Shown in pieces: positions 1,898-17,295 of a DNA stretch of 39,180 nucleotides. The DNA comes from Acetobacteraceae bacterium (GTDB lineage: Bacteria > Pseudomonadota > Alphaproteobacteria > Acetobacterales > Acetobacteraceae), in NCBI GenBank assembly GCA_027488195.1, contig JAIYCD010000154.1, positions 1-39,180 on the forward strand, in the 5' to 3' direction. The position numbers were made by a program, and so were the translations under genes. The notes under the pieces are model-generated. The model was not told where the DNA came from. It did not search any database and worked only from the letters and a program-made list of their open reading frames with translations. Every line of letters begins with the position of its first letter. Position 1 is the first letter of the stretch.

Positions 1898-2115
1898 CAC
1901 GGGGGCATCTGGTCAAACGCAGCCTGCGCCTCGCCGGCCACGCCACCTCCATCGCGCTGGAGCCGGAATTCTGGGCGGTGCTGGAGGCGGAGGCCGCCCG
2001 GCGCGGCATGACGCTCGCGGCCCTCGTGGCCGAGCAGGATGCAACGCGGATCGAGGCGGACCAGCCCTTGGCCAGCCGCCTGCGCGTCTTCGCGCTGGGC
2101 CTCAGCCGAGGCTGA
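1894..2115 (+). CDS. Ribbon-helix-helix domain protein
   Basis: A 73-residue protein starting at GTG 1894, with GTGA overlap onto the fumC stop. The pattern HLVKRSLRLAGHATSIALEP, then EFWAVLEAEAARRGMTLAALVAE, matches the short alphaproteobacterial ribbon-helix-helix family: a beta strand followed by two helices. Such proteins may bind DNA as dimers, but most members have no known target. It is translationally coupled to fumC. Its last 14 bases overlap the 3' end of chrA on the other strand, so the two transcripts converge. Confidence 0.8.
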   Translation: MTRGHLVKRSLRLAGHATSIALEPEFWAVLEAEAARRGMTLAALVAEQDATRIEADQPLASRLRVFALGLSRG

Positions 2116-3400
2116 GAACCCGCAGCACCAGCCCGGCCCCCGCCGTCACGCCCAGCACCGTGACCACGCCGAGCTTGAGGCGAAACAGGCAGACCGCCGC
2201 GAGCACGGAGAGCAACAGCGCCGCGGGCTGCAGGCTCCATGGGTCGGGCAGGATGCCCTCCATCCGCGTGAAGAGGACCCGCAGCGCGAACCAGAGGGCG
2301 AGATTGGCAATCACGCCGACCACCGCGGCGGTCACGGCCGCCAGCGCGCCCTTGAGGCGCGGCACGTCGTGCAGCCGCTCGATGTAAGGGGCGCCGAGGA
2401 AGATCCAGGCAAAGCAGGGGAGGAAGGTGACCCAAAGGGTCAGCCCGGCGCCTGCCACCGCGCCGAGCGCTCCGGAATCCCGCCAGCCCGCCAGGAAGCC
2501 TACGAATTGCAGCACGAGGATGAGCGGCCCCGGCGTCGTCTCCGCGAGGCCGAGGCCGGCCAGCATCTCGGGCGCCGACAGCCAGCGGTAATGCTCCACC
2601 GCCTCCTGCGCCACATAGGCCAGCACGGCATAGGCGCCGCCGAAGGTGACCACGGCCATCTTGGAGAAGAACCAGCCGATATCGGCGAAGACGCCGCCCA
2701 TCGGCATGAGAAGAGCCACGGGCCAGACCCAGAGCACGAGGGCCACCAGCCCCGCCCGGCGCGCCAACGGCGCCATGGCGGCGATGCGGCCGGGATCGGC
2801 CGCCAGCGCCGCATCGAGCGCGGCGGGCGCACCCTCACGCGGCTTGCCGTGGCCGCCGGCCGCGAAGGCCTGCGGCAGGGCATAGCCCATGGCGGCCGCG
2901 GCCAGCACGACGACGGGAAAGGGCAGAGCGAAGATGAAGAGTGCCAGGAAGGCCGTGACCGCCAACGCCCAGGGCAGGGCGCCCTTCAAGGCGCGCTTCG
3001 CGACCTTGATCAGCGCTTCCACCACCAGGATCAGCACCGCGCATTTCAGCCCGAAGAACAGCCCGGCGATCAGCGGCACATCCCCCAGGATCGCGTAGAC
3101 GAAGGAGAGCGCCAGCATCACCGCGGCACCCGGCAGCACGAACAGCAAGCCGGCGGCGATGCCGCCCTTCACCCCATGCATCAGCCAGCCGAGATAGGTG
3201 GCGAGCTGCATGGCCTCGGGCCCCGGCAGCAGCATGCAGAAGTTCAGCGCATGCAGGAAACGGCGGTCGCTCACCCAATGGCGCTGGTCCACCACCTCGC
3301 GCTGCATCATCGCGATCTGGGCCGCCGGCCCTCCGAAGGAGAGGCAGCCGATGCGCGCCCAGACGCGCAAGGCTTCGGAGAAGCTCGGCAATGCGCTCAT
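2102..3400 (-). CDS. chrA: Chromate efflux transporter ChrA (two-domain)
   Basis: A 432-residue membrane protein of the CHR family, which exports chromate from the cytoplasm in proton-coupled fashion. It has the long form with two homologous CHR halves. The N-terminal half carries SFGGPAAQIAMMQ and NFCMLLPGPEAMQLATYLGW. The second half carries TFGGAYAVLAYVAQEAVE and GLAETTPGPLILVLQFVGF. About ten hydrophobic segments are visible. I chose ATG 3400 (MSALPSFSEA) because family similarity begins there; in-frame sequence upstream is proline-rich and unlike the family. It is divergent from an OxyR-type regulator across 131 bases and converges on the ribbon-helix-helix gene. Confidence 0.92.
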   Translation of the reverse strand: MSALPSFSEALRVWARIGCLSFGGPAAQIAMMQREVVDQRHWVSDRRFLHALNFCMLLPGPEAMQLATYLGWLMHGVKGGIAAGLLFVLPGAAVMLALSFVYAILGDVPLIAGLFFGLKCAVLILVVEALIKVAKRALKGALPWALAVTAFLALFIFALPFPVVVLAAAAMGYALPQAFAAGGHGKPREGAPAALDAALAADPGRIAAMAPLARRAGLVALVLWVWPVALLMPMGGVFADIGWFFSKMAVVTFGGAYAVLAYVAQEAVEHYRWLSAPEMLAGLGLAETTPGPLILVLQFVGFLAGWRDSGALGAVAGAGLTLWVTFLPCFAWIFLGAPYIERLHDVPRLKGALAAVTAAVVGVIANLALWFALRVLFTRMEGILPDPWSLQPAALLLSVLAAVCLFRLKLGVVTVLGVTAGAGLVLRVLSLG

Positions 3401-3531
3401 ATGGGCCGTCCTGTCGGCGGGTGGCGGAACCCCAGGCGTCCTCCAGGGCGCGGCCGGCGTCAAGCCGCCCCTTGCCGCCCAGCCCGCGCTGGCGAATGCT
3501 GGCGCCCCAGCACTGCCCCTGGGGGAATCGC
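3401..3531. promoter_or_regulatory. Divergent promoter region between chrA and oxyR
   Basis: The 131 bases between the two start codons must hold both promoters. No convincing -35/-10 pair can be picked by eye in this GC-rich stretch. LysR-type regulators commonly bind such a shared region and control both themselves and the divergent gene. The region contains a direct repeat GCTGGCG and flanking CCCCAG/CTGGGG blocks, neither of which is a defined OxyR site. Confidence 0.3.
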
Positions 3532-4832: not shown

Positions 4833-6557
4833 TCACTCCGCCGCGGTCGCCAGCAGGCTCTGGCCGGGCTTGAGGCGCGTGAAGCGTACCTCGCGCCAGC
4901 CGAGCTTCACCCGCCCTTCCTCGAGTGTGACGACGGTGTGGCGAAGGCCCTTCGTATCCTCGTCCGTCTGGGGGAAATCCTCGCGCCAATGGGCGCCGCG
5001 GCTTTCGCAGCGCGCCTCGCTCGCCGCCACGATGGCGCGGCTCGTCAGGATCAGGCTTTCCAGGTTCAGCCAGTCCGCCCAGGACATGTTGAAGCCGCGC
5101 GCGCCATCCTTCACGCCGGAGGCGCGCAGCTCCGCCTCGATCGCATCCAGCCCCGAGGCGGCTTCGGCCAGGCCCTTCGCGTCGCGCAGGATGCCGGCCT
5201 TGTCCCACATGAGGTCCGCCAGCGCATCGCGCAGCGGGTTGAGGGGGCGCGCGGGCCTCCCGAAGGGGGCGAGTGCCGCGTCCTGCGCCAGCTGCAGCGC
5301 GAATTCATCGGGCGCTTCCAGCGCGCCCTCGCGCGGGACCCATGCGGCCATGGCATCGCCCGCGATGCCGCCGAAGACGGTGGAATTGGCCACGCCGTTG
5401 CCGCCGAGCCGGTTCGCGCCATGCACGCCGCCCGTATCCTCGCCGGCGGCGAAGAGGCCGGGCAGTTCGGTGCTGCCATCCGCGCGGAAGACCACGCCGC
5501 CCATCATGTAATGCGCCGTCGGCACCACGGGCACGCGGCCACCCGCGAGGTCGAAGCCCATATCGGCGCAGCGCTCGACCATGCCCTTGAACTGCTTGGC
5601 GACGTTCGCGGGGCCCAGATGCCCCATCTCGATCCAGAGCCCGCCCTCGGCATTCACGCGGCCGGCCTGGATCTCACGCTCCATCGAACGTGACACGATG
5701 TCGCGCGTGGCGCGCTCGCCCCTCGGGTCGTAATTGTGCATGAAGCGCTGGCCGTCGCCGTTCAGCAGGTAGCCACCGGCGCCGCGCAGCCCTTCCTCGA
5801 TGATGGTGCCGGTCATGCGCGTGCCGGGGCCGGCGAGCACGCCGGTGGGATGGAACTGCACCATCTCCATGTCGCGCAGCGCGAGGCCCGCCCGCAGCGC
5901 CATCGCCATGCCGTCGCAGGATTTGTCGCCCGAGGGGGTGTGGTACTTGTACATGGTGGGCCCGCCGCCCGTGCCCAGCAGCACGGCCTTGGCCTGCGCG
6001 AAGACGAAGCGGCCCGTGCGGATGTCGAGCAGCAGGACGCCCGAGAGGCGCGATCCATCGCGCGAGGGGATGAGGGCCAGCGCGCGATGTTCCTCCAGCC
6101 GCTCGATCCCGCGCGCCCAGGTCTGCTCGGCGAGGCGGTTGATGATCTCGATGCCGGTCAGGTCGCCCTTGTGGACCGTGCGGTCGAAGGTCTGCCCGGC
6201 GAAGGCCTTCTGGTGGATGCTGCCATCCGCGTTGCGGTCGAAGAAGCAGCCCCAGCGGTTCTCCAGCTCACGGATGCGGCGCTGGGCGACGGTGACGAGC
6301 GTCCAGGCCAGGTCCTGGTCATTCAGCCATTTCCCGCCATCGAGCGTGTCCATGAAATGCCGCTCGGCTGAGTCACCCGCGGCAAGGGCCACGTTGTAGC
6401 CGCCCTGCACCATGCGCGTGCAGCCCGACTTGCCGAGAAGGCCCTTCACCGCGACGGTGACGCGCAGATCCGGGTTCGCGGATTTCGCATGGAGTGCCGC
6501 CAGCAGCCCCGCGCCGCCGGAGCCAAGGACCAGGATATCGGTGGTGATGCGGTCCAT
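4833..6557 (-). CDS. Complex II-type flavoprotein subunit (succinate dehydrogenase/fumarate reductase family)
   Basis: A 574-residue FAD protein, close to SdhA/FrdA length. The Rossmann motif GSGGAG lies near residue 13. Substrate-site residues of the family are all present: His236 (VQFHPTG), Arg285 (TRDIVSR), His349 (PTAHYMMGG) and Arg383 (HGANRLGGN). The position equivalent to the FAD-linking histidine (E. coli SdhA His45, FrdA His44) is Cys46 in KSGCTRMVQGG, so the usual histidyl-FAD bond cannot form. I prefer ATG 6557 over GTG 6560 because GGGAG lies 7 bases upstream of it. The start overlaps the hydratase beta stop (TGATG). The iron-sulfur and anchor subunits lie upstream in the same operon but separated from it, an order unlike sdhCDAB. 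The true substrate is open. Confidence 0.88.
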   Translation of the reverse strand: MDRITTDILVLGSGGAGLLAALHAKSANPDLRVTVAVKGLLGKSGCTRMVQGGYNVALAAGDSAERHFMDTLDGGKWLNDQDLAWTLVTVAQRRIRELENRWGCFFDRNADGSIHQKAFAGQTFDRTVHKGDLTGIEIINRLAEQTWARGIERLEEHRALALIPSRDGSRLSGVLLLDIRTGRFVFAQAKAVLLGTGGGPTMYKYHTPSGDKSCDGMAMALRAGLALRDMEMVQFHPTGVLAGPGTRMTGTIIEEGLRGAGGYLLNGDGQRFMHNYDPRGERATRDIVSRSMEREIQAGRVNAEGGLWIEMGHLGPANVAKQFKGMVERCADMGFDLAGGRVPVVPTAHYMMGGVVFRADGSTELPGLFAAGEDTGGVHGANRLGGNGVANSTVFGGIAGDAMAAWVPREGALEAPDEFALQLAQDAALAPFGRPARPLNPLRDALADLMWDKAGILRDAKGLAEAASGLDAIEAELRASGVKDGARGFNMSWADWLNLESLILTSRAIVAASEARCESRGAHWREDFPQTDEDTKGLRHTVVTLEEGRVKLGWREVRFTRLKPGQSLLATAAE

Positions 6558-7165
6558 CACGTCACTCCCATCTTCGCGAGGACGGCGGCGCGCTTCGCTT
6601 CCACGCTGGCCTGAACATCGCGGTAAAGGCTGCCGCCATGGCTGTCCATGCCGACGATGAGCGGGCCGAAATCCTTGATGGCGAAGCGCCAGAGGCTCTC
6701 GGGATTCAAGTCATCCATGTCCACATCCTCGATGGCGGCGATCCAGGTGGTCTCCAGTGCCGCGGCACCGCCGATCACGGCGAGGTAGCAGCCGCCGAGT
6801 TCCTGGAAGGCCTTGGCCGAATCCTCGCGCAGGCCGCCCTTGCCGATGATGATGCGAACACCCTCGCGCTCCATCAGTGGGCGGGTGAAGCGCTCCATGC
6901 GGTCGGAGGTCGTGGTGCCGATGCAGACGGCCTCGTAGCCGGCCTGGTTCGTGCCGGACGGGTCCACCTTGCGGACGTTCGGCGCGGTGTGGATCACCGC
7001 GTGGCCGTTCAGGTCGAAGCGGGTGCGGCGCCCGCGGTCGAACATGTGGATCTGCGTCGCGTCACGAATGCCGAAGAGCGTGTCCTGCAAGGTCACCGTG
7101 TCGCCAGCGCGCAGCTTGCGGATATCGGCCTCGGTGCAGGGCATGTGGAGGGTATGGTGTGCCAT
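6557..7165 (-). CDS. Class I fumarase/tartrate dehydratase-type hydro-lyase, beta subunit
   Basis: A 202-residue protein matching the C-terminal domain of iron-sulfur class I fumarases and the beta subunit of two-subunit fumarase or L(+)-tartrate dehydratase. Family blocks include LRAGDTVTLQDTLFGIRDA, PSGTNQAGYEAVCIGTTTSDRME, RIIIGKGGLRED and the C-terminal KDFGPLIVGMDSHGGSLY. The subunit completes the active site formed with the alpha subunit, whose start codes only 4 bases upstream. Usual substrates are fumarate/malate, tartrate or mesaconate/citramalate; sequence alone does not separate them. A class II fumarase (fumC) elsewhere in the window makes a non-TCA substrate, or iron- and oxygen-dependent backup, worth considering. 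Confidence 0.9.
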   Translation of the reverse strand: MAHHTLHMPCTEADIRKLRAGDTVTLQDTLFGIRDATQIHMFDRGRRTRFDLNGHAVIHTAPNVRKVDPSGTNQAGYEAVCIGTTTSDRMERFTRPLMEREGVRIIIGKGGLREDSAKAFQELGGCYLAVIGGAAALETTWIAAIEDVDMDDLNPESLWRFAIKDFGPLIVGMDSHGGSLYRDVQASVEAKRAAVLAKMGVT

Positions 7166-7169
7166 GGCA

Positions 7170-8072
7170 TCAAAATCCGATCACCACGCCCTCGGGCGTG
7201 AATGTGGCACTCGCCCGGCGGGCGGAATGGCACTGCACATTCACCGCCACGGGGTTCATGGTGATGTGCGTCGCCGCAATCTCGACGTGGACGGCGAAGG
7301 CCGTGCTGTCGCCGCCAAGCCCCTGGGGGCCGATGCCGAGGCTGTTCACCGCCTCGGAGAGTTCCACTTCCAGCTTGGCGCCCTCCGCATCCGCGCAGAC
7401 GGAGCCCAGCGGCCGCGTCGCCGCCACCTTGGCGAGATGCATGCACAGGTCACTCGTGCCGCCGACACCCACGCCCAGGATGGTCGGCGGGCAGACCTTG
7501 CCGCCCGCCTTGATCGCCGCATCCACCACGAAGCGCTTCACGCCGGCCAGGCCATCGGCCGGGATCAGCATTTGCAGGAAGGAGCCATTCTCCGAGCCGC
7601 TGCCCTTCGGGATCATCTCAAGCCGCAGGGTGCGCGGCGTCTCGACGAAGTCGATGTTGATCACCGGCACATGCGCCCCGCAGGAGGAATGCGCGTTCAC
7701 CCGCGTGATGGGGTGCACCACGGAACTGCGCAGCGGATGCTCGCGCGTGGCACGCTCGGTCCCGCGCGCGATGGCCTGCTTCAGCGCCCAGCCATCCAGC
7801 TCCACATCGCGGCCTATCTGCACGTTGAAGATGGGAATGCCGGTATCCTGGCAGAGCAGGTTTTCCGTCCGCTCGGCCACCGCGATGTTCTCGATCATCG
7901 TGGCGAGGACCGAGCGCGCGAGGCCGTCCGTCTCGCTCGCATCAAGTCGAAAAAAGCCCTGCTTGATGTCGTCGGGCAGGATCTTGAGCGCCCTGATGTA
8001 CAAGAGCTTGGCGGCTTCCTCGATCGCGTCGGGGGTCACGCGCAGCTTGTCGGGGGGCGGGATGAGGGACAT
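7170..8072 (-). CDS. Class I fumarase/tartrate dehydratase-type hydro-lyase, alpha subunit
   Basis: A 300-residue catalytic subunit of the [4Fe-4S] hydro-lyase family. Likely cluster ligands are Cys74 (LLCQDTG), Cys194 (KVCPPTI) and Cys281 (VQCHSARR). Other family blocks are PKGSGSENGSFLQML and GVGVGGTSDLCMHLAK. The cluster is open at one iron, which binds substrate, so the enzyme is expected to be sensitive to oxygen and superoxide. ATG 8072 has AGGAAA upstream. The exporter gene ends 10 bases before it and the beta gene follows after 4 bases, so all are one transcript. Fumarate, tartrate or mesaconate are the known family substrates; the choice here is unresolved. Confidence 0.9.
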   Translation of the reverse strand: MSLIPPPDKLRVTPDAIEEAAKLLYIRALKILPDDIKQGFFRLDASETDGLARSVLATMIENIAVAERTENLLCQDTGIPIFNVQIGRDVELDGWALKQAIARGTERATREHPLRSSVVHPITRVNAHSSCGAHVPVINIDFVETPRTLRLEMIPKGSGSENGSFLQMLIPADGLAGVKRFVVDAAIKAGGKVCPPTILGVGVGGTSDLCMHLAKVAATRPLGSVCADAEGAKLEVELSEAVNSLGIGPQGLGGDSTAFAVHVEIAATHITMNPVAVNVQCHSARRASATFTPEGVVIGF

Positions 8073-8082
8073 GGGCGTTTCC

Positions 8083-8874
8083 TCAGACGAGAAGGGAGAG
8101 ACCGGAGACGAGCAGCAGGCCGAGCAGCACCAGGCGGAAGCCCTGCGCCGGCAGGTGCTTGCCCACGCGTAAGCCGGCCCAGGTGCCGAGCAGCAGGGCA
8201 GGGACGGCGGTGGCGGTCAGAAACATGGCCTCGCCCGTGAAGAAGCCGGTGAAGGCGAGGCCGATGATCGTCAGCGCCTGCATGATGGCGATGAAGGGCT
8301 GCATCAGCGCCCGCGTCTCCTGCGGCGGCATGCCCTGCATGTCGGCCCACATGCCGACCAGCGCGCCCACATAGCCGCCGATGCCGCCCAGGATGCCCGA
8401 GGCGAAGCCGATGGTGGCATCACTGCGCGGCGTGGCCCGCGCGCTCGGCGCGCGTAAGCGCAGCGCGAGCCGCGCGAGGGCAGGGTAGGTGGGTGCCCCC
8501 GTGCCCAGTGCCAGGCGCAGCACCGCGATGCGCGTCAGGGTGTAGCCGGCATAGAGCACCAGCAGCAGGCCGACGCCCGCCACCACCGCCCGCGCCGGCC
8601 CGAGTGCGAGGATGGCGATGCCCATCGGCAGCCCCAGCGTCGCGGTGCCGACATAGAGCCAGAGGCGCGGCCAGGGGATGTGATGCCGGACCGCATAGGT
8701 GCCGATGCCCTGCACGATCAGGCTGCCCATCACCAGCACGGGCGCCACCAGCGCGGGCGCCAGGAATTGCAGCAGGATCGCGGCGCCGACCAGCACGAAG
8801 GCGAAGCCCGCGATGCTCGCGCAGAAGGCGGCCAGCAGGCTGCCCGCCGAGATCAGGAGCGCGTCAGCCCACAT
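8083..8874 (-). CDS. TauE/SafE family membrane exporter
   Basis: A 263-residue polytopic protein with about eight hydrophobic segments and the two-fold repeat of the TauE/SafE (former DUF81) family. The N-terminal half has GSLLAAFCASIAGFAFVLV and the second half GFASGILGGIGGYVGALVGM. Members export sulfite, sulfoacetate or other small anions, and some carry carboxylates. The gene overlaps the preceding anchor gene by 11 bases and precedes the hydratase genes, so it is embedded in the operon rather than a bystander. Placement between complex II-like and hydratase subunits suggests it moves a substrate or by-product of this pathway across the inner membrane. Confidence 0.85.
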   Translation of the reverse strand: MWADALLISAGSLLAAFCASIAGFAFVLVGAAILLQFLAPALVAPVLVMGSLIVQGIGTYAVRHHIPWPRLWLYVGTATLGLPMGIAILALGPARAVVAGVGLLLVLYAGYTLTRIAVLRLALGTGAPTYPALARLALRLRAPSARATPRSDATIGFASGILGGIGGYVGALVGMWADMQGMPPQETRALMQPFIAIMQALTIIGLAFTGFFTGEAMFLTATAVPALLLGTWAGLRVGKHLPAQGFRLVLLGLLLVSGLSLLV

Positions 8875-9259
8875 TGAGCAGGAAAAGGATGCCGGCGGCG
8901 ATGGCGATGCCGGCCGAGGCCGCCACCATGTCCTTCTGCCGCGCCCGCCAGCCGAGGAATTCGAGCGCCATCACGCGCAACCCGCCGGCCAGATGCACCG
9001 CGAGCAGGACCACGAGACCCCATTCGGCGAATTTGAACAGCGCGCCATCGGTCCAGCGCAGGAAGCCCTCCAGCGCCGCCTCGCCCGAGATGGCCTGGCC
9101 CAGCGCCCAGAAATGCAGCGGCAGGAACAGCGCGAGCAGCAGGCCCGAGACGCGATGGATCACGAATGCGACGTAAGTCGGGTGGCGGCGATCCCCGCCT
9201 GATCGCCGCAGCGTGGCTTCACGCGGAGGCGTGAATCGGTCGGCAGATGGGTCAGGCAT
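8864..9259 (-). CDS. SdhC-like cytochrome b membrane anchor
   Basis: A 131-residue protein with three membrane segments (about residues 37-55, 78-97 and 112-130) after a hydrophilic N-terminus. HRVSGLLLALFLPLHFW (His35, Arg36, Ser38) is the SdhC signature that contributes to the quinone site. His89 in HLAGGLRVMALEF is the likely axial heme ligand. I chose ATG 9259 (MPDPSADRF); longer starts add a proline/serine-rich stretch unlike the family. It overlaps the upstream anchor gene by 8 bases and the exporter gene by 11. Together with the next subunit it would bind the soluble dehydrogenase to the inner membrane and pass electrons to or from quinone. Confidence 0.85.
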   Translation of the reverse strand: MPDPSADRFTPPREATLRRSGGDRRHPTYVAFVIHRVSGLLLALFLPLHFWALGQAISGEAALEGFLRWTDGALFKFAEWGLVVLLAVHLAGGLRVMALEFLGWRARQKDMVAASAGIAIAAGILFLLNVG

Positions 9260-9575
9260 GGTAGAGCCCCCAGGCGGCGCGGATGCCGAAGCCCGCGGTG
9301 ACCAGCCCGATGCCGAGCCAGAGCGCATCCACGCCGCGCCCACGCAGGCCCAGCCACTCGCCCGCGATGTTGCGCAGTCCGATCGCGCCGTGCAGCCCCG
9401 CGCAGAGCGCGAAGACGACGTAGAAGGCGAACCAGAGATCGGCGCCGCGCGTGCGCGCCAGGATCTCGGCGGCGGAAAGCCCGCCGCGGATCGCCAGCAT
9501 GATCGTCACCAGATGCACCAGCACCGCCACGCCCAGGAAGGCCGCCGTGATGCGCTGGATGGCCCAGAGCTTCAT
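9252..9575 (-). CDS. Second complex II-type membrane anchor
   Basis: A 107-residue protein with three membrane segments. It starts IQRITAAFLGVAVLVHLV, recalling the quinone-site region of SdhC/SdhD subunits, and has His62 in LHGAIGLRNIAGEW. That second pattern (His-x4-Gly-Leu-Arg) also occurs in the neighbouring anchor, so both subunits could supply a heme ligand, as in complex II with heme ligated from two chains, or hold two hemes. ATG 9575 overlaps the stop of the iron-sulfur gene (ATGA). The assignment rests on topology, motif and operon position. Confidence 0.82.
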   Translation of the reverse strand: MKLWAIQRITAAFLGVAVLVHLVTIMLAIRGGLSAAEILARTRGADLWFAFYVVFALCAGLHGAIGLRNIAGEWLGLRGRGVDALWLGIGLVTAGFGIRAAWGLYHA

Positions 9576-10306
9576 CAGCGCCGCCCCAGGAGGCTGTCCC
9601 AGAAGATCGTCCGCTTCAGCCCGGCAATGGCCGAGGAGGGGTCGAGATTCTTCGGGCAGCGTTCCGTGCAGGATTGGGTGGAGTGGCAGGAATGGCAGCC
9701 GGCATCGCCGCTGACGGCATCGAGCCGCTCCTTGTTGCCGCCATCGCGCACGTCATTCACCAGCGTCCAGGCGCGGTTCATCGCGGCGGTGCCGAGGTAA
9801 TCCTTGTTCCAGGCGACGATGTCGCAGGAGGCGTAGCAGACGCCGCAGCCGATGCATTCGATGCCCGCATCGGCGGCCTGGCGCTTCTTCGAGGTGGGCG
9901 GGACGACGGCGAATTCCTCCGGCACGGCGCCATCCGGCGCATCCTTGGGCTGGAATTTGCCCCCCGCGCGTGCCCATTTGTCGAAGAAGGGCGCCATGTC
10001 GGTGGCGAGGTCGCGGATGACGGGAAGGTTCGCGAGCGGCCGGATCTCCAGCGTCTCGCCGGGGCTCGCGACCCGCTTCACATGGGTGCGGCAGGTCCAG
10101 CGCGCCCGGCCATTCACCTCCATGGCGCAGGAGCCGCACATGCCCACACGGCAGGCGAAGCGATAGGCGAGGTCGGGCTGCTGCTCGCGCTGGATCTGCG
10201 TCACCACGTCGAGGATGGTCTGGTTCTCGCGCGCGGGCACCGCGTATTCCGCGAATGCCCCGCCCTCGGCATCGCCGCGCCAGATGCGGACCTTGAGATC
10301 GGCCAT
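9575..10306 (-). CDS. Complex II-type iron-sulfur subunit (SdhB/FrdB-like)
   Basis: A 243-residue protein with all ligands for three clusters. A plant-type [2Fe-2S] site uses Cys52, 57, 60 and 72 (CRVGMCGSC, then TC). A [4Fe-4S] site is expected from Cys151, 154, 157 and 217. A [3Fe-4S] site is expected from Cys161, 207 and 213. The position equivalent to E. coli SdhB Ile209 is Thr, so a fourth Cys converting the last cluster to [4Fe-4S] is absent. An additional Cys204-His-Ser precedes the last group. ATG 10306 has a strong GGGAGGA site. It is the first gene of the minus-strand operon and faces the 39-bp inverted repeat. Confidence 0.92.
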   Translation of the reverse strand: MADLKVRIWRGDAEGGAFAEYAVPARENQTILDVVTQIQREQQPDLAYRFACRVGMCGSCAMEVNGRARWTCRTHVKRVASPGETLEIRPLANLPVIRDLATDMAPFFDKWARAGGKFQPKDAPDGAVPEEFAVVPPTSKKRQAADAGIECIGCGVCYASCDIVAWNKDYLGTAAMNRAWTLVNDVRDGGNKERLDAVSGDAGCHSCHSTQSCTERCPKNLDPSSAIAGLKRTIFWDSLLGRR

Positions 10307-10329
10307 CGCTGTTCCTCCCGATGGGTGAT

Positions 10330-10368
10330 CCTGCCCCTGTCTTGTATAAGACACAAGACCGGGGCAGG
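10330..10368. promoter_or_regulatory. 39-bp inverted repeat in the divergent promoter, probable GntR operator
   Basis: The arms are CCTGCCCCTGTCTTGT (10330-10345) and ACAAGACCGGGGCAGG (10353-10368), complementary at 15 of 16 positions around a 7-base centre ATAAGAC. The core CTTGT-N7-ACAAG resembles operators of GntR-family repressors, which often read TTGTATAAGACAA-like palindromes. TATAAG at 10345-10350 inside it could serve as a -10 box for the plus-strand operon, so occupancy would block transcription. The repeat lies 24 bases from the iron-sulfur start and 28 from the ThDP enzyme start. The GntR gene at 12015 is the obvious candidate ligand. A role as an RNA hairpin is less likely given its position before both genes. 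Confidence 0.7.
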
Positions 10369-10395
10369 CTTCCCGGAAAGAGCAGGAGACGCATC

Positions 10396-12018
10396 ATGCA
10401 GCACGAGATCCGCGGCGCCGACATCCTTTGGGGCGCGCTGAAGAAAGGCGGCGTCACGCGCGTCTTCAGCCTCTCGGGCAACCACATCATGCCGGTCTAT
10501 GACGCCGCCTTCGGGCAGGGGATCGAGATCATCCATGTCCGCCACGAGGCCGCGGCCGTTCACATGGCCGATGCCTGGGCGCGGCTGACGGGCGAGGTAG
10601 GCGTGGCGCTGGTCACCGGCGGGCAGGGGCACAGCAATGCCGTGGCCGGCCTGCCGACGGCGCTGGCGGGCGAGGTGCCGTTGCTGCTGCTCTCGGGCCA
10701 TGCGCCGCTGAACGAATTGGGCCTCGGCGCTTTCCAGGAGACGCCGCAGGTCGAGATGGCCGCACCCCTCTGCAAGGCGGCCTGGCTCGCGCAAAGCACG
10801 GCGGGTCTCGCTTCCGACATCGCGCGCGCCTTCTCCATCGCGCGCTCAGGCCGGCCGGGCCCCGTGCATGTCTCGCTGCCCACCGATGTGGTGGAGGCCA
10901 AGGCCACGCCGAAGCTGCCGGAGGAGGGCGCCTACCTGGCCGCCCCCATGCCGCTCGCAGCCGAGAGCGCCGCCGCGATCCTCGCCGCCATCGCCGGCGC
11001 GGAGCGGCCCTTCCTGGCCGCCGGCCCGGCGCTGAACACCCCCAATGGCCGGCGCGCGCGGGCCGCGCTGGAAGCCGCGCTCGGCCTGCCGATCGCGCTG
11101 ATGGAAAGCCCGCGCGGCCTGGGCGACCCCTCGCTCGGTGCCTTCGCCGAGATGCTGGCGCAGTCGGATTGCGTGGTGCTCCTGGGCAAGCCGCTCGACT
11201 TCACCTTGCGCTTCGGCCGCGCACCCTTCGTAGATGCCAAGGCGCGCTGGATCGTGATCGAGCCCGACGCGAAGCTCATGGCCCGCGCCGTGGAGGGCCT
11301 GGGTGCGCGCCTCGCCCTCGGCGCCATGGCGGCCCCGCTGGAGGCGGTGGCCACGCTCGCCGCGCATGCCACGTCACATCCCAGCGCCGCCTGGGGCGCG
11401 GCCGTGCGCGAGGCCATCGCCCATCGCCCGGCGGCCTGGGCAGCACTCGCCGGCAAGCCGGGCGGCCCGGTGCATCCGGCCACGCTCGGAGCCGCACTCC
11501 GCCCCCATGTGGCCGAGGACGCCGTGCTGGTGATTGACGGTGGTGAGATCGGCCAATGGATGCAGGCCTGCCTCACAGCGCCCGAGCGCGTGATCAACGG
11601 TGTTGCGGGCGCCATCGGCGCCGCACTGCCCTTCGCGCTCGCCGCCCGCGCCGCGCGCCCTGCTGGCCGCGTCCTCGCCATTTGCGGCGATGGCACCTTC
11701 GGCTTCCATATGGCGGAATTCGACACCGCAATTCGGCACGACCTGCCCTTCGTGCTGGTCGTCGGCAACGACGCGAAATGGAATGCGGAATACCAGATCC
11801 AGGCGCGCGATTATGGCGCGAACCGCACCCATGGGTGCGAACTCGCCCCCGGCACGCGCTATGACCTCGTCGTCAGCGGCCTCGGCGGGCACGGCGAACT
11901 GGTCGAGCGCGGCGAGGACCTGGCCGCGGCCCTGGAGCGCGCCTTCGCCAGCGGCAAGCCCGCCTGCGTGAACGTCATGATCGAGGGCCTTCCCGCCCCC
12001 AATCTCCGCCGCGCATGA
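10396..12018 (+). CDS. ThDP-dependent enzyme of the acetolactate synthase/2-hydroxyacyl-CoA lyase superfamily
   Basis: A 540-residue protein with the three domains of the family. The N-terminal pyrimidine-binding domain has the catalytic Glu51 in RHEAAAVHMADAWARLTG. The middle domain spans roughly residues 185-320. The C-terminal diphosphate-binding domain has GDG at 431-433 followed about 27 residues on by GNDAKWN, the Mg-ThDP motif. GAFQETPQVEMAAPLCKA is shared by acetolactate synthases and 2-hydroxyacyl-CoA lyases. The enzyme probably makes or breaks a C-C bond next to a carbonyl; substrate unknown. It is too dissimilar in context to be the biosynthetic IlvB, and no IlvN-like subunit is present. 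ATG 10396 follows AGGAGA, and its end overlaps the GntR start. Confidence 0.85.
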   Translation: MQHEIRGADILWGALKKGGVTRVFSLSGNHIMPVYDAAFGQGIEIIHVRHEAAAVHMADAWARLTGEVGVALVTGGQGHSNAVAGLPTALAGEVPLLLLSGHAPLNELGLGAFQETPQVEMAAPLCKAAWLAQSTAGLASDIARAFSIARSGRPGPVHVSLPTDVVEAKATPKLPEEGAYLAAPMPLAAESAAAILAAIAGAERPFLAAGPALNTPNGRRARAALEAALGLPIALMESPRGLGDPSLGAFAEMLAQSDCVVLLGKPLDFTLRFGRAPFVDAKARWIVIEPDAKLMARAVEGLGARLALGAMAAPLEAVATLAAHATSHPSAAWGAAVREAIAHRPAAWAALAGKPGGPVHPATLGAALRPHVAEDAVLVIDGGEIGQWMQACLTAPERVINGVAGAIGAALPFALAARAARPAGRVLAICGDGTFGFHMAEFDTAIRHDLPFVLVVGNDAKWNAEYQIQARDYGANRTHGCELAPGTRYDLVVSGLGGHGELVERGEDLAAALERAFASGKPACVNVMIEGLPAPNLRRA

Positions 12019-12737
12019 CAGCACTCGCCCGCGCGCCCCTGTATGCGCGTGCCGAGCAGGAGTTGCGCGCCCGCATCGCGGCCGGCGAGTGGAAGCCGGG
12101 CGAGGCGCTGCCGACCGAGGCCGCGCTCTCGGGCCAACTCGGCATCAGCCAGGGCACGTTGCGGCGCGCGCTGGGCGTGCTCGAAGCCCAGCGCCTGATC
12201 GAGCGCCGCCAGGGCATCGGCACCTATGTCACCCAGGCGACCAGCGAGCGCGCGCTTTTCCACTTCTTTCGCGCCGAGGCCGTGGATGGCGGGCGCATCA
12301 GCCCCACCAGCCGCCTGCACCGTCTGGAGCGCGCACCCGCCACGGCCGAGGAAGCGGCGGCCCTTGTGCTGCCGCGCCGCGCCCGCGTGCATCGCCTGGC
12401 CCGCCAGCGCTTCGTGGCCGGCCGCGCCGCCATCGTCGAGGAAATCGCCCTGCCGGAGGCGCTCTTCCCCGGCTTCAACCTGCCCATCGGCGTGGAACTG
12501 ACCGATGAGCTTTATGTCCATTACCAGCGCCACCACGGCATCACGGTGATGCGCGTGACCGAGAAGCTCTCCGCCATCGGGGCACCACCCGCCATCGCCG
12601 GCCTGCTGGACCTCGCGCCCGGCGCGCCCATTCTTCACATCGCGCGGGTCGCCTTCGACGTGATGGACCGCGCGGTGGAGCGGCGCCTCTCCTGGATCGA
12701 GACCGGCGCGCTGCGCTACGCGATCGAGCTGCGCTAG
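12015..12737 (+). CDS. GntR family regulator with UTRA domain (HutC subfamily)
   Basis: A 240-residue regulator. Residues 8-75 form the winged helix-turn-helix (RAPLYARAEQELRARIAAGE, LPTEAALSGQLGISQGTLRRAL, GIGTYV). Residues about 95-235 form the UTRA ligand-binding domain, ending WIETGALRYAIELR. HutC-type proteins are usually repressors released by a pathway metabolite. The start overlaps the stop of the ThDP enzyme gene (ATGA), so the regulator is made with that enzyme and probably represses its own operon. The palindrome at 10330-10368 is its most likely site and would also place the complex II/hydratase operon under its control. The effector is unknown. Confidence 0.9.
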   Translation: MTALARAPLYARAEQELRARIAAGEWKPGEALPTEAALSGQLGISQGTLRRALGVLEAQRLIERRQGIGTYVTQATSERALFHFFRAEAVDGGRISPTSRLHRLERAPATAEEAAALVLPRRARVHRLARQRFVAGRAAIVEEIALPEALFPGFNLPIGVELTDELYVHYQRHHGITVMRVTEKLSAIGAPPAIAGLLDLAPGAPILHIARVAFDVMDRAVERRLSWIETGALRYAIELR

Positions 12738-16275: not shown

Positions 16276-17295
16276 ATGAACGCCATCGCACCTGCACCCG
16301 TCCGCGGCCTCCTCGGCGCCATCGGAAACACGCCGCTCATCCGCCTCGCGCGCGCCAGCGCGGCCACAGGCTGCGAGATCCTGGGCAAGGCCGAATTCAT
16401 GAATCCGGGCGGCTCGGTGAAGGATCGCGCGGCACTCGCCATCATCGAGGGGGCCGAGGCGCGGGGCGAACTCCGCCCGGGCGGCGTGATCGTGGAGGGC
16501 ACGGCGGGCAATACCGGCATCGGCCTCACGCTGGTGGGCAATGCGCGCGGCTATCGCAGCGTCATCGTGATGCCGGAGACCCAAAGCCAGGAGAAGATCG
16601 ACTTCCTGCGCATGATCGGCGCCGACCTTCGCCTCATCCCGGCCAAGCCCTTCAAGGACCCCGGCAACTACGTGCATTATTCACGCCGGCTGGCGGAGGA
16701 ATTGAACGCGGCCGACCCGGGTTCCGCCATCTGGGCCAACCAGTTCGACAATCTCGACAATCGCGAGGGCCATCGCCGCACCACCGGCGCCGAGATCGTG
16801 GCGCAGGCGGGCGGCCGGGTGGATGCCTTCACCTGCGCCTGTGGCACCGGCGGCACGCTGGCCGGCATCGCCCTGGCGCTGAAGGCGCATGACGCCACCA
16901 CGCAGGTGGTGCTTGCCGATCCCATGGGCTCCGCCCTCTACGCCTGGCGCAAGACCGGCATGCCGGAGATGAGCGAGGGCACCTCCATCACCGAGGGCAT
17001 CGGCCAGTCCCGCGTGCCCGGCAACCTGGAGGGCGCGCCGATCGATGACGCGCTGCAGGTGACGGATGAGGAGGCGCTGGAGCAGGTCTTCGACCTCACG
17101 CTGCATGAGGGGCTGTGCATTGGCGGCAGCGCGGGGATCAACGTGGCGGCCGCGGTGAAGCTGGCGCGCCGGATGGGCCCGGGCCATCGCATCGTCACCA
17201 TCCTCTGCGATGGCGGGGCGCGCTATCAGTCCAAGCTGTTCAACCCGGAATTCCTTCGGTCCAAGAGCCTGCCCGTGCCAAGCTGGCTTGCATGA
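16276..17295 (+). CDS. cysK: Cysteine synthase A (O-acetylserine sulfhydrylase)
   Basis: A 339-residue PLP enzyme that makes L-cysteine from O-acetylserine and sulfide. Lys49 in NPGGSVKDR is the Schiff-base lysine. [11 protein letters not shown] is the substrate loop and [11 protein letters not shown] the phosphate cup. The loop reads TAGNTG rather than the TSGNTG of E. coli CysK, a variant common in alphaproteobacterial enzymes of this length. The gene is followed by a serine acetyltransferase with ATGA overlap, so the two last steps of cysteine synthesis are coupled. Cystathionine beta-synthase is the main alternative, made less likely by the partner gene. Confidence 0.92.

Follow-up and report, generated by a model that had tools for sequence, protein, structure and literature searches.

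Why would a bacterium that already encodes succinate dehydrogenase and fumarase carry a second, differently arranged set of such genes? The question is raised by positions 4833 to 12737 of contig JAIYCD010000154.1 (39,180 nucleotides, hereafter the window) from an Acetobacteraceae bacterium (assembly GCA_027488195.1). Here the genes of a complex II-like enzyme share an operon with a class I hydratase and a TauE/SafE-family exporter, and face a thiamine diphosphate (ThDP)-dependent enzyme and a GntR/UTRA regulator. A first-pass annotation of the sequence had read this module as a dedicated catabolic route for a dicarboxylate, with methylsuccinate–mesaconate–citramalate, tartrate or a sulfonated acid as candidates. 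We propose, with somewhat better than an even chance of being right, that the module degrades 3-sulfopropionate (3-SP) through 3-sulfoacrylate and sulfolactate, repeating the succinate–fumarate–malate chemistry on sulfonate analogues. 3-SP is succinate with one carboxylate exchanged for sulfonate; the best-fitting substrate thus carries one carboxylate and one sulfonate and is not a dicarboxylate.

The two divergent operons, seven genes on the minus strand and two on the plus strand, are confirmed in the window, and all nine genes are present in the order, on the strands and with the families first described:

4833..6560, minus: flavoprotein of the complex II-like enzyme (PF00890 and Succ_DH_flav_C); proposed catalytic subunit of a 3-sulfopropionate dehydrogenase
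6557..7165, minus: class I hydratase beta subunit (PF05683); proposed 3-sulfoacrylate hydratase
7170..8072, minus: class I hydratase alpha subunit, Fe-S type (PF05681), CQDTG motif kept
8083..8874, minus: TauE/SafE-family exporter (PF01925); proposed sulfite exporter
8864..9259, minus: SdhC-like membrane anchor, AncC (Sdh_cyt; TIGR02970 above cut-off)
9252..9575, minus: SdhD-like membrane anchor, AncD (Sdh_cyt above cut-off; TIGR02968 below, 24.6 against 41.8)
9575..10306, minus: SdhB-like iron-sulfur subunit (Fer2_3 and 4Fe-4S dicluster domains; TIGR00384 above cut-off)
10339..10359, no strand: putative operator-like palindrome between the operons, from sequence scans of related loci
10396..12018, plus: ThDP-dependent enzyme of the acetolactate synthase / 2-hydroxyacyl-CoA lyase kind
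12015..12737, plus: GntR/UTRA (HutC-like) regulator (GntR and UTRA domains)

Junctions in the minus operon measure -1, -11, -11, +10, +4 and -4 bp when the start of AncC is taken as 9262 (with the AncC ATG at 9259, its overlap with AncD is 8 bp), and the ThDP and GntR genes overlap by 4 bp. Translation probably begins at ATG 10306 in the iron-sulfur gene, at ATG 9259 in AncC and at ATG 10396 in the ThDP gene; the gap between the divergent operons is 89 bp.

The proposed route and its stereochemistry

In the proposed route the membrane-bound complex II-like enzyme would oxidise 3-SP to (E)-3-sulfoacrylate, passing the electrons to quinone, and the class I hydratase would add water to 3-sulfoacrylate to yield (R)-sulfolactate. 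SuyAB, known enzymes whose genes are present elsewhere in the genome, would convert sulfolactate to pyruvate and sulfite, and TauE, to judge from its family, would export the sulfite. The SlcC- and ComC-like dehydrogenases of many relatives may link in the other sulfolactate enantiomer.

The configuration of the hydratase product deserves comment. Fumarase yields L-malate, which is (S); the same fumarase-type L-geometry is named (R) in sulfolactate because CH2SO3 outranks COOH. NCBIfam holds an 'L-sulfolactate dehydrogenase' model, and ComC is described as an (R)-sulfolactate dehydrogenase in the available text of PMC5695019, in line with (R) being L. SuyAB, in turn, acts on (2R)-sulfolactate according to the portion of PMC11489063 at hand. 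The predicted product and the SuyAB substrate are therefore of the same configuration, and the former could pass directly to SuyAB. Such a direct route fits the window genome: beside its suyAB, no SlcC- or ComC-like gene was noticed.

A precedent exists for the intermediates. Roseovarius nubinhibens ISM is said to degrade 3-SP via sulfoacrylate and sulfolactate (thesis of J. Mayer, as cited in the accessible part of PMC11489063), and its 3-SP, sulfoacrylate and sulfolactate are identical to the compounds proposed here. The same text describes bacterial 3-SP degradation as unreported apart from that thesis, and names two sources of the compound: Enterococcus gilvus, and probably other bacteria with the same genes, makes it from sulfoquinovose and dihydroxypropanesulfonate, and some bacteria make it from homotaurine (PMC11489063). 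A 2026 review, in its available sections, calls the mechanism of 3-SP degradation in Bilophila unclear (PMC12890257). The open-access literature that we searched yielded no gene assignment for 3-SP degradation. The module supplies genes to be considered for it, a well-defined prediction of stereochemistry and carrier strains known by name; if the proposal is true, the annotation of probably hundreds of loci would be corrected (523 matching stretches to two peptide patterns, see below).

Distance from the housekeeping enzymes

The module is distinct from the housekeeping succinate dehydrogenase/fumarase pair, because the genome has canonical sdhCDAB and fumC besides. The separate fumC, which the first-pass annotation had taken to argue against simple tricarboxylic acid (TCA) cycle duty, is real (open reading frame (ORF) 239-1897 on the plus strand, at the 5' end of the window, with Lyase_1 and FumaraseC_C matches), and canonical sdhCDAB lies on another contig of the same genome (C174, L048). 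The canonical SdhA passes TIGR01816 with 982 bits against a cut-off of 727, sdhC passes TIGR02970, sdhD passes TIGR02968 and sdhB carries SdhB domains; the module is thus not the ordinary succinate dehydrogenase of this genome. Canonical SdhA and the module flavoprotein share 36% identity.

With a flavin adenine dinucleotide (FAD) subunit, an iron-sulfur subunit and two membrane subunits encoded jointly, the module has the four-subunit composition of the complex II superfamily. Its flavoprotein scores below the cut-offs of all 25 NCBIfam models listed (438.6 bits against 567.3 for TIGR01812); the only listed equivalog models passed by module proteins are the generic fumarate hydratase model (alpha subunit) and TIGR02970 (SdhC-like anchor). 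In a tree the module flavoproteins, including those of Rhodococcus jostii RHA1 and haloarchaea, form a clade apart from the SdhA, FrdA and NadB sequences used (support 1.000), and a separate tree with further paralogues gives the split a support of 0.999. In 12 of 150 genomes of the same family, the window genome included, identities to this flavoprotein run from 64 to 100%; beyond this group, no genome reaches more than 39%. On this drop in identity, the flavoprotein is a discrete family among the 150 genomes.

We compared the active sites of 28 flavoproteins (18, and 10 further) with E. coli FrdA, using literature numbering and the roles generally given to FrdA residues in catalysis, carboxylate binding and covalent FAD attachment. 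Like E. coli SdhA and FrdA, the module enzyme keeps the catalytic His, Glu and Arg: equivalents of H232, E245, R248, R287, H355 and R390, residues of the C=C chemistry, are all retained. Unlike them, its operon is split with a hydratase, the covalent-FAD His is Cys, and the flavoprotein stands in its own clade. The alterations of the pocket are confined to one end. H355 and R390, which hold one carboxylate, are kept, while at the opposite end Thr244 is replaced by Glu in 28/28 and a loop is inserted in 28/28, contributing Arg in 25 and Lys in three. A pocket altered at a single end would fit a substrate in which one carboxylate is paired with a different anion.

A third flavoprotein, encoded on contig C12 of genome G000 (L049, L004), is 35% identical to that of the module, carries the motif LIGRGGATVMAQMT, has no FrdA-type His loop and adjoins a small ferredoxin-like match. 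It is not NadB but belongs to a separate flavoprotein family, found also in G003, G005 and G072.

The hydratase has the Fumerase and Fumerase_C domains and keeps the CQDTG region that binds the cluster, and so belongs to the class I fumarase/tartrate dehydratase family. It shares the two-subunit make-up, both domains, CQDTG and KGN/KGG-type motifs with class I fumarase and L(+)-tartrate dehydratase (E. coli TtdAB, PDB 7xky). It departs from them in the ARDxAH region, which is IRDATQI (a few sequences have Leu instead of Gln), in having GTTT where they have GPTT, and in a beta subunit that falls below equivalog cut-offs. For the L(+)-tartrate dehydratase equivalogs the scores are 143.5 against 264 (beta) and 178.1 against 365 (alpha); for the fumarate hydratase models the alpha subunit scores above (302.5 against 276, PRK06246) and the beta subunit below (132.6 against 269, PRK06043). 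The beta subunit, too, forms a discrete family in the genomes searched, with identities of at least 67% and then a fall to 37%: it occurs at 67-75% in nine further genomes of a 385-genome class sample and at 73% in one further genome of a 398-genome phylum sample, where the other matches at threshold are at 36-37%.

Sulfonate genes and exchanged hydratases

Scanning 84,980 species genomes with two peptide patterns gave 523 matching stretches, representing fewer loci, and we examined the best 80 of the 523. Counts below refer to the 48 of these 80 named loci that have about 10 kb on both sides (at least 9.6 kb); the other 32 lie on short contigs or near contig ends and stay outside them. For some neighbourhoods genes were called with a rough script, which may miss short or overlapping genes and fails on low-GC genomes such as L072. 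The six core genes stand together in 48/48 loci, more than chance would give, and their order is kept far beyond close relatives. With this order conserved and canonical sdhCDAB present, neither of the two outcomes named in advance as refuting the first-pass annotation came about, and its view of a dedicated catabolic route apart from the TCA cycle is upheld. At least one of SuyA, SuyB, SlcC, ComC and HpsN is encoded in 20/48 loci; the ThDP gene or one of these sulfonate genes is present in 46/48, and both in 6/48.

Beyond the closest relatives, many of the neighbourhoods are islands of C3-sulfonate genes, with SuyAB, SlcC-like, ComC-like or HpsN among them. In L110 (Polynucleobacter) an ABC transporter, HpsN, HpsO-like and HpsP-like genes, the module, TauE, the ThDP enzyme, SlcC-like and ComC-like genes, SuyA, SuyB and GntR form one island; its HpsN matches the sulfopropanediol 3-dehydrogenase structure PDB 8v35 (E 5e-237), and its HpsN, HpsO and HpsP are 79, 63 and 61% identical to C. 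pinatubonensis plasmid genes. On plasmid pNYY1_1 of Methylobacterium radiotolerans, typed as mobilizable, the module, ThDP, TauE, SuyAB, SlcC-like, ComC-like and GntR genes occur together under the generic annotations succinate dehydrogenase, fumarate hydratase and UxaA family hydrolase. Since neither SuyA nor SuyB is named by NCBIfam, the hpsN-hpsO-suyAB cluster of C. pinatubonensis HN-2 served as reference; it agrees with the hpsRNOUPsuyAB order described in the part of PMC11382572 available. SlcC and ComC were named from gene order and general likeness. The module thus sits, in many relatives, among the genes of C3-sulfonate catabolism (hpsNOP, slcC, comC, suyAB, tauE/suyZ) known from C. 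pinatubonensis, Chromohalobacter and Paracoccus, whose routes, as far as the accessible descriptions go, have no step made of a complex II-like enzyme plus a hydratase.

The window genome encodes SuyAB, the sulfolactate sulfo-lyase, on contig C148 (L171 10271-11743), with SuyB 73% and SuyA 53% identical to the C. pinatubonensis cluster. Across genomes SuyB and the module go together. In the window's own family (150 genomes, module identified by the flavoprotein; one of the 12 module genomes, G076, has a type II hydratase alpha subunit, see below), SuyB is found in 9/12 module genomes against 10/138 others, and SuyB or Xsc in 11/12 against 11/138. With the module identified by the beta subunit and the window genome excluded, the class sample gives 8/9 against 23/362 (385 genomes were searched for the module and 372 for SuyB; the one miss, G438, 78% complete, was checked singly). 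In a Burkholderiaceae-like family of 180 genomes, again by the beta subunit, the figures are 14/14 against 16/166, and in all 14 SuyB lies on the module contig, about 3-11 kb away (the G963 match is partial). One-sided Fisher tests give 2e-7, 8e-9 and 6e-13, respectively, values that ignore kinship and so overstate the strength of the association. Taken together, 31/35 sampled module genomes have SuyB. Among 72,556 plasmid records the flavoprotein family occurs in 18 and SuyB at 60% identity or more in 13, with six records in both: three Methylobacterium, P. versutus, P. ferrooxidans and R. jostii RHA1.

The same flavoprotein family also pairs with a second class I hydratase, in modules that we call type II (order iron-sulfur subunit, anchors, flavoprotein, alpha, beta); the hydratase of Pseudomonas MPC6 is 37% (alpha) and 29% (beta) identical to that of the window. 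Type II modules lie on plasmids of Paracoccus versutus, P. seriniphilus, Sulfitobacter, Pseudorhizobium, Cupriavidus, Pseudomonas MPC6 and M. nodulans. The P. versutus island holds TauE, ComC-like and SlcC-like genes, a TTT transporter, an HpsN-like gene annotated hisD, and SuyAB. In MPC6 a gene for CoA-acylating (methyl)malonate-semialdehyde dehydrogenase follows the beta subunit with zero gap, and Cupriavidus N-1 and P-10 carry a full-length gene of this kind (61% to MPC6) about 1.3-2.9 kb upstream on the opposite strand; both the MPC6 protein (695 bits) and the N-1 protein (690 bits) exceed the TIGR01722 cut-off of 448.5. Full-length versions stand beside type II modules in these three loci, two of them related Cupriavidus plasmids; type II loci L213, L215, L216, L221 and L222 have none, L216 showing a weak partial match. 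MPC6 and M. nodulans also carry sulfite oxidase or dehydrogenase genes.

A third pairing occurs on plasmids of Haloarcula GH36 and Natribaculum, where the flavoprotein (46-47%) and iron-sulfur subunit have an argH-family lyase, TauE and two UxaA-type genes as neighbours, joined in GH36 by an Ldh_2 gene; membrane anchors are not annotated at these two loci. XcbC, a bacterial coenzyme M synthesis protein, forms sulfoacrylate. The haloarchaeal lyase scores above the argH cut-off (323 against 279.5) and below that of the XcbC model (256.9 against 575); no such lyase is encoded in the window. Coenzyme M enzymes, as listed in the available part of PMC11507031, include an 'argininosuccinate lyase'. 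The haloarchaeal UxaA proteins are only 35-37% identical to SuyA/SuyB, and the name SuyAB for them would be a guess. Both the type II pairing and the argH-like pairing fit a C3 sulfonate. A broader view, to which we give a little less than an even chance, is that a family of complex II paralogues switched from succinate to 3-SP and was paired with at least three hydratases: class I type A (giving sulfolactate), class I type B (some giving malonate semialdehyde and sulfite) and the argH/XcbC-like lyase of haloarchaea. The result would be a widespread respiratory-chain-linked sulfonate pathway, annotated as succinate dehydrogenase plus fumarase.

Two side observations concern type II modules. 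Upstream of the module in M. nodulans (L218 6958-7182, plus strand) lies a 75-residue remnant of a malonate-semialdehyde dehydrogenase gene, which looks like the trace of a route since lost or exchanged for another. Several type II modules (L213 16405-17412, L214 15561-16601, L216, L218) have as neighbour a YeiH-type 'putative sulfate exporter' gene, which is PF03601 where tested (L213) and is accompanied by NIPSNAP proteins in L213, L214 and L216.

How else could the module be read? The malonate-semialdehyde dehydrogenases suggest a hydratase that adds OH at the sulfonated carbon of 3-sulfoacrylate; the product, the bisulfite adduct of malonate semialdehyde, would split into malonate semialdehyde and sulfite, so that the hydratase would itself desulfonate with no need for SuyAB. 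Beyond these three type II loci, such direct desulfonation would suit the presence of TauE near the module in 47/48 loci, also where SuyAB is missing, and genome G095, which has the module without a SuyB-grade gene or Xsc. However, the type I hydratase of the window is quite distant from its MPC6 counterpart and SuyB accompanies most sampled modules, and we consider this outcome rather unlikely. The same reaction types would serve a C4 sulfonate such as sulfosuccinate, oxidised to sulfofumarate, hydrated, and then either losing sulfite to give oxaloacetate or undergoing oxidative decarboxylation into the sulfopyruvate/sulfolactate route; on this reasoning SlcC, ComC, SuyAB and TauE would find their use downstream. 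For such a route, however, the malonate-semialdehyde dehydrogenase beside some type II modules would be superfluous. The module is also found in many genomes of Polynucleobacter, a freshwater genus, whereas sulfosuccinate comes mainly from man-made surfactants, which we counted against a C4 substrate. We prefer 3-SP over sulfosuccinate, which we hold to be unlikely, mainly because partners of both possible C3 hydrations are seen: SuyAB, and malonate-semialdehyde dehydrogenase (the latter in three loci only).

Further readings dispense with sulfonates or with their breakdown. Fumarate, mesaconate and tartrate all have known class I hydratases, and among NCBIfam models the beta subunit scores best against tartrate dehydratase, which would suit the plain dicarboxylates (methylsuccinate–mesaconate–citramalate, or tartrate) of the first-pass annotation. 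By eye and annotation, with no family search made, no citramalate, mesaconate or tartrate gene was noticed beside the module in the neighbourhoods examined; what recurs is SuyAB, SlcC-like, ComC-like, HpsN and TauE genes, with sulfite oxidase beside some type II modules. Of the substrates first suggested the sulfonated acid is therefore the one that gained support, and a plain dicarboxylate appears very unlikely. A second succinate dehydrogenase/fumarase pair that boosts the TCA cycle on C3 compounds would explain why the complex II catalytic residues are kept, and this is the interpretation that a study on Paracoccus wurundjeri gives of an induced 'fumarate and tartrate' cluster that includes TauE; the cluster rose on sulfofucose (PMC12421959, sections available to us). 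Against it stand canonical sdhCDAB and fumC in the genome, the altered flavoprotein pocket in 28/28 sequences, and recurring neighbours that are SuyAB, HpsN and sulfite-handling genes, and we find a spare TCA pair quite unlikely. The content of the P. wurundjeri 'cluster 3' suggests that it is this module, and a P. versutus cluster points to type II; 3-SP degradation, if true, may explain the induction on a sulfosugar (PMC12421959, as far as available). Finally, the module could run in reverse, dehydrating sulfolactate and reducing sulfoacrylate to 3-SP as an electron sink, for which Cys in place of the covalent-FAD His is what a reductase would have. TauE and sulfite oxidase neighbours indicate desulfonation, however; the named carriers, Roseococcus, Roseomonas and Polynucleobacter among them, are for the most part aerobic, which we also counted against this direction, and it strikes us as extremely unlikely.

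Several observations weigh against degradation of 3-SP itself. The covalent-FAD His is Cys in 28/28 flavoproteins; loss of this His weakens succinate oxidation more than fumarate reduction, and the exchange speaks for the reductive direction unless Cys holds the flavin. Glu in place of Thr244 is no obvious sulfonate binder. In the loci of the closest relatives none of SuyA, SuyB, SlcC, ComC and HpsN is found within 10 kb, and in the window genome suyAB lies on a different contig from the module and has no operator. Among the neighbours, ComC-like proteins score highest against the L-sulfolactate dehydrogenase model, but with 160-173 bits where the cut-off is 500; SlcC-like proteins match only general 2-hydroxyacid dehydrogenase models. 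A SuyB-grade gene is missing from 4/35 module genomes (G095, G058, G134, G438): G095 lacks Xsc as well, and G058 and G134 have Xsc in a sulfoacetate-like cluster.

Regulator, ThDP enzyme and further neighbours

Inside the shared 89-bp promoter region lies an imperfect palindrome, GTCTTGTATAAGACACAAGAC. For its 14-base core, 0 matches are expected in shuffles of the window, and the whole palindrome has one copy in the genome even when up to 3 mismatches are allowed. The palindrome or a close variant is present in all scanned loci that hold both this gap and the GntR gene (L034, L035, L037, L076-L079, L081-L086, L089, L090, L092-L095, L101), and in short contigs L080, L087 and L099, where GntR would fall past the contig end. 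It is absent from the scanned loci without GntR in their flanks (L036, L038, L097, L098, L100, L102, L103), and from L039 and L088 (one genome) and L096, whose contigs end too soon to show GntR; L091 has GntR on a contig that begins within the iron-sulfur gene, leaving the gap uncovered. With both domains and a candidate palindromic operator the regulator is of the HutC-like GntR/UTRA kind, scoring below the HutC equivalog (90.7 against 220), and it may repress both operons via the palindrome. A regulon shared between the module and suyAB was considered and dropped: the palindrome is not upstream of suyAB and has its single copy here.

The ThDP gene is real, as the first-pass annotation had it; a C-C cleavage step in the pathway, which it had added, is unproven, and the gene lies within 10 kb of the module in 32/48 loci and is missing there in 16/48. 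The enzyme scores below the Xsc cut-off (165.8 against 676.4, TIGR03457); its substrate is probably a 2-oxo acid or an aldehyde, with a step that lies either upstream or on a side branch. We do not favour a sulfopyruvate decarboxylase feeding Xsc: Xsc scores above cut-off in 3/150 family genomes and was not found in the window genome, which is 88% complete. A Variovorax orthologue (56%) adjoins tannase-like and MFS genes, with a TauD/TfdA dioxygenase gene about 4-5 kb off; no module or SuyAB gene is annotated around it. In Siccirubricoccus sp. (G088, L037 11555-13178) the ThDP gene is broken into two reading frames, owing either to a mutation or to an error in sequencing.

The count of TauE-family genes near the module (47/48) rests on a loose threshold (identity 27%, length covered 60%). 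Beside the module, a gene for a protein of roughly 750 residues is seen in L036 (8168-10435), L067 (7621-9864), L068 (1039-3363), L118 and L215 (17479-19800); it is DUF3604 where tested or annotated (L036, L215) and occupies the place of TauE in L036.

Some sulfonate islands hold an iron-containing alcohol dehydrogenase gene (L110 5569-6717, plus strand; L143 14761-15903, minus strand), a candidate for action on 3-hydroxypropanesulfonate or dihydroxypropanesulfonate; the L110 protein is nearest the ErcA, lactaldehyde reductase and SarD models, below all cut-offs. In one of the 80 loci (L104 19314-20603, plus strand) a class III aminotransferase, possibly for homotaurine, lies beside HpsN and the module. 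Plasmid pRHL1 of Rhodococcus jostii RHA1 (L184) carries a diverged module in another gene order (flavoprotein 54%, hydratase 48 and 51%); the plasmid also encodes SuyB (62%), about 20 kb from the module. The Xsc genes of G058 (contig C8, L177) and G134 (contig C34, L178) stand, by eye, with ADP-forming ligase-like and aldehyde dehydrogenase-like ORFs.

In the window itself, a CHR-family chromate-transporter gene occupies 2102-3463 (minus strand); such a gene is near the module in 24/80 named loci, adjoined in L036 and L038 by rhodanese-like ORFs recognised by eye. A PALP-family cysteine-synthase-like gene lies at 16276-17295 (plus strand), and comparable ORFs, again by eye, are near the module in L042 and L043. 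Beta-propeller-like and desaturase-like ORFs are also near the module in these two loci, and both recur in L034 and L039.

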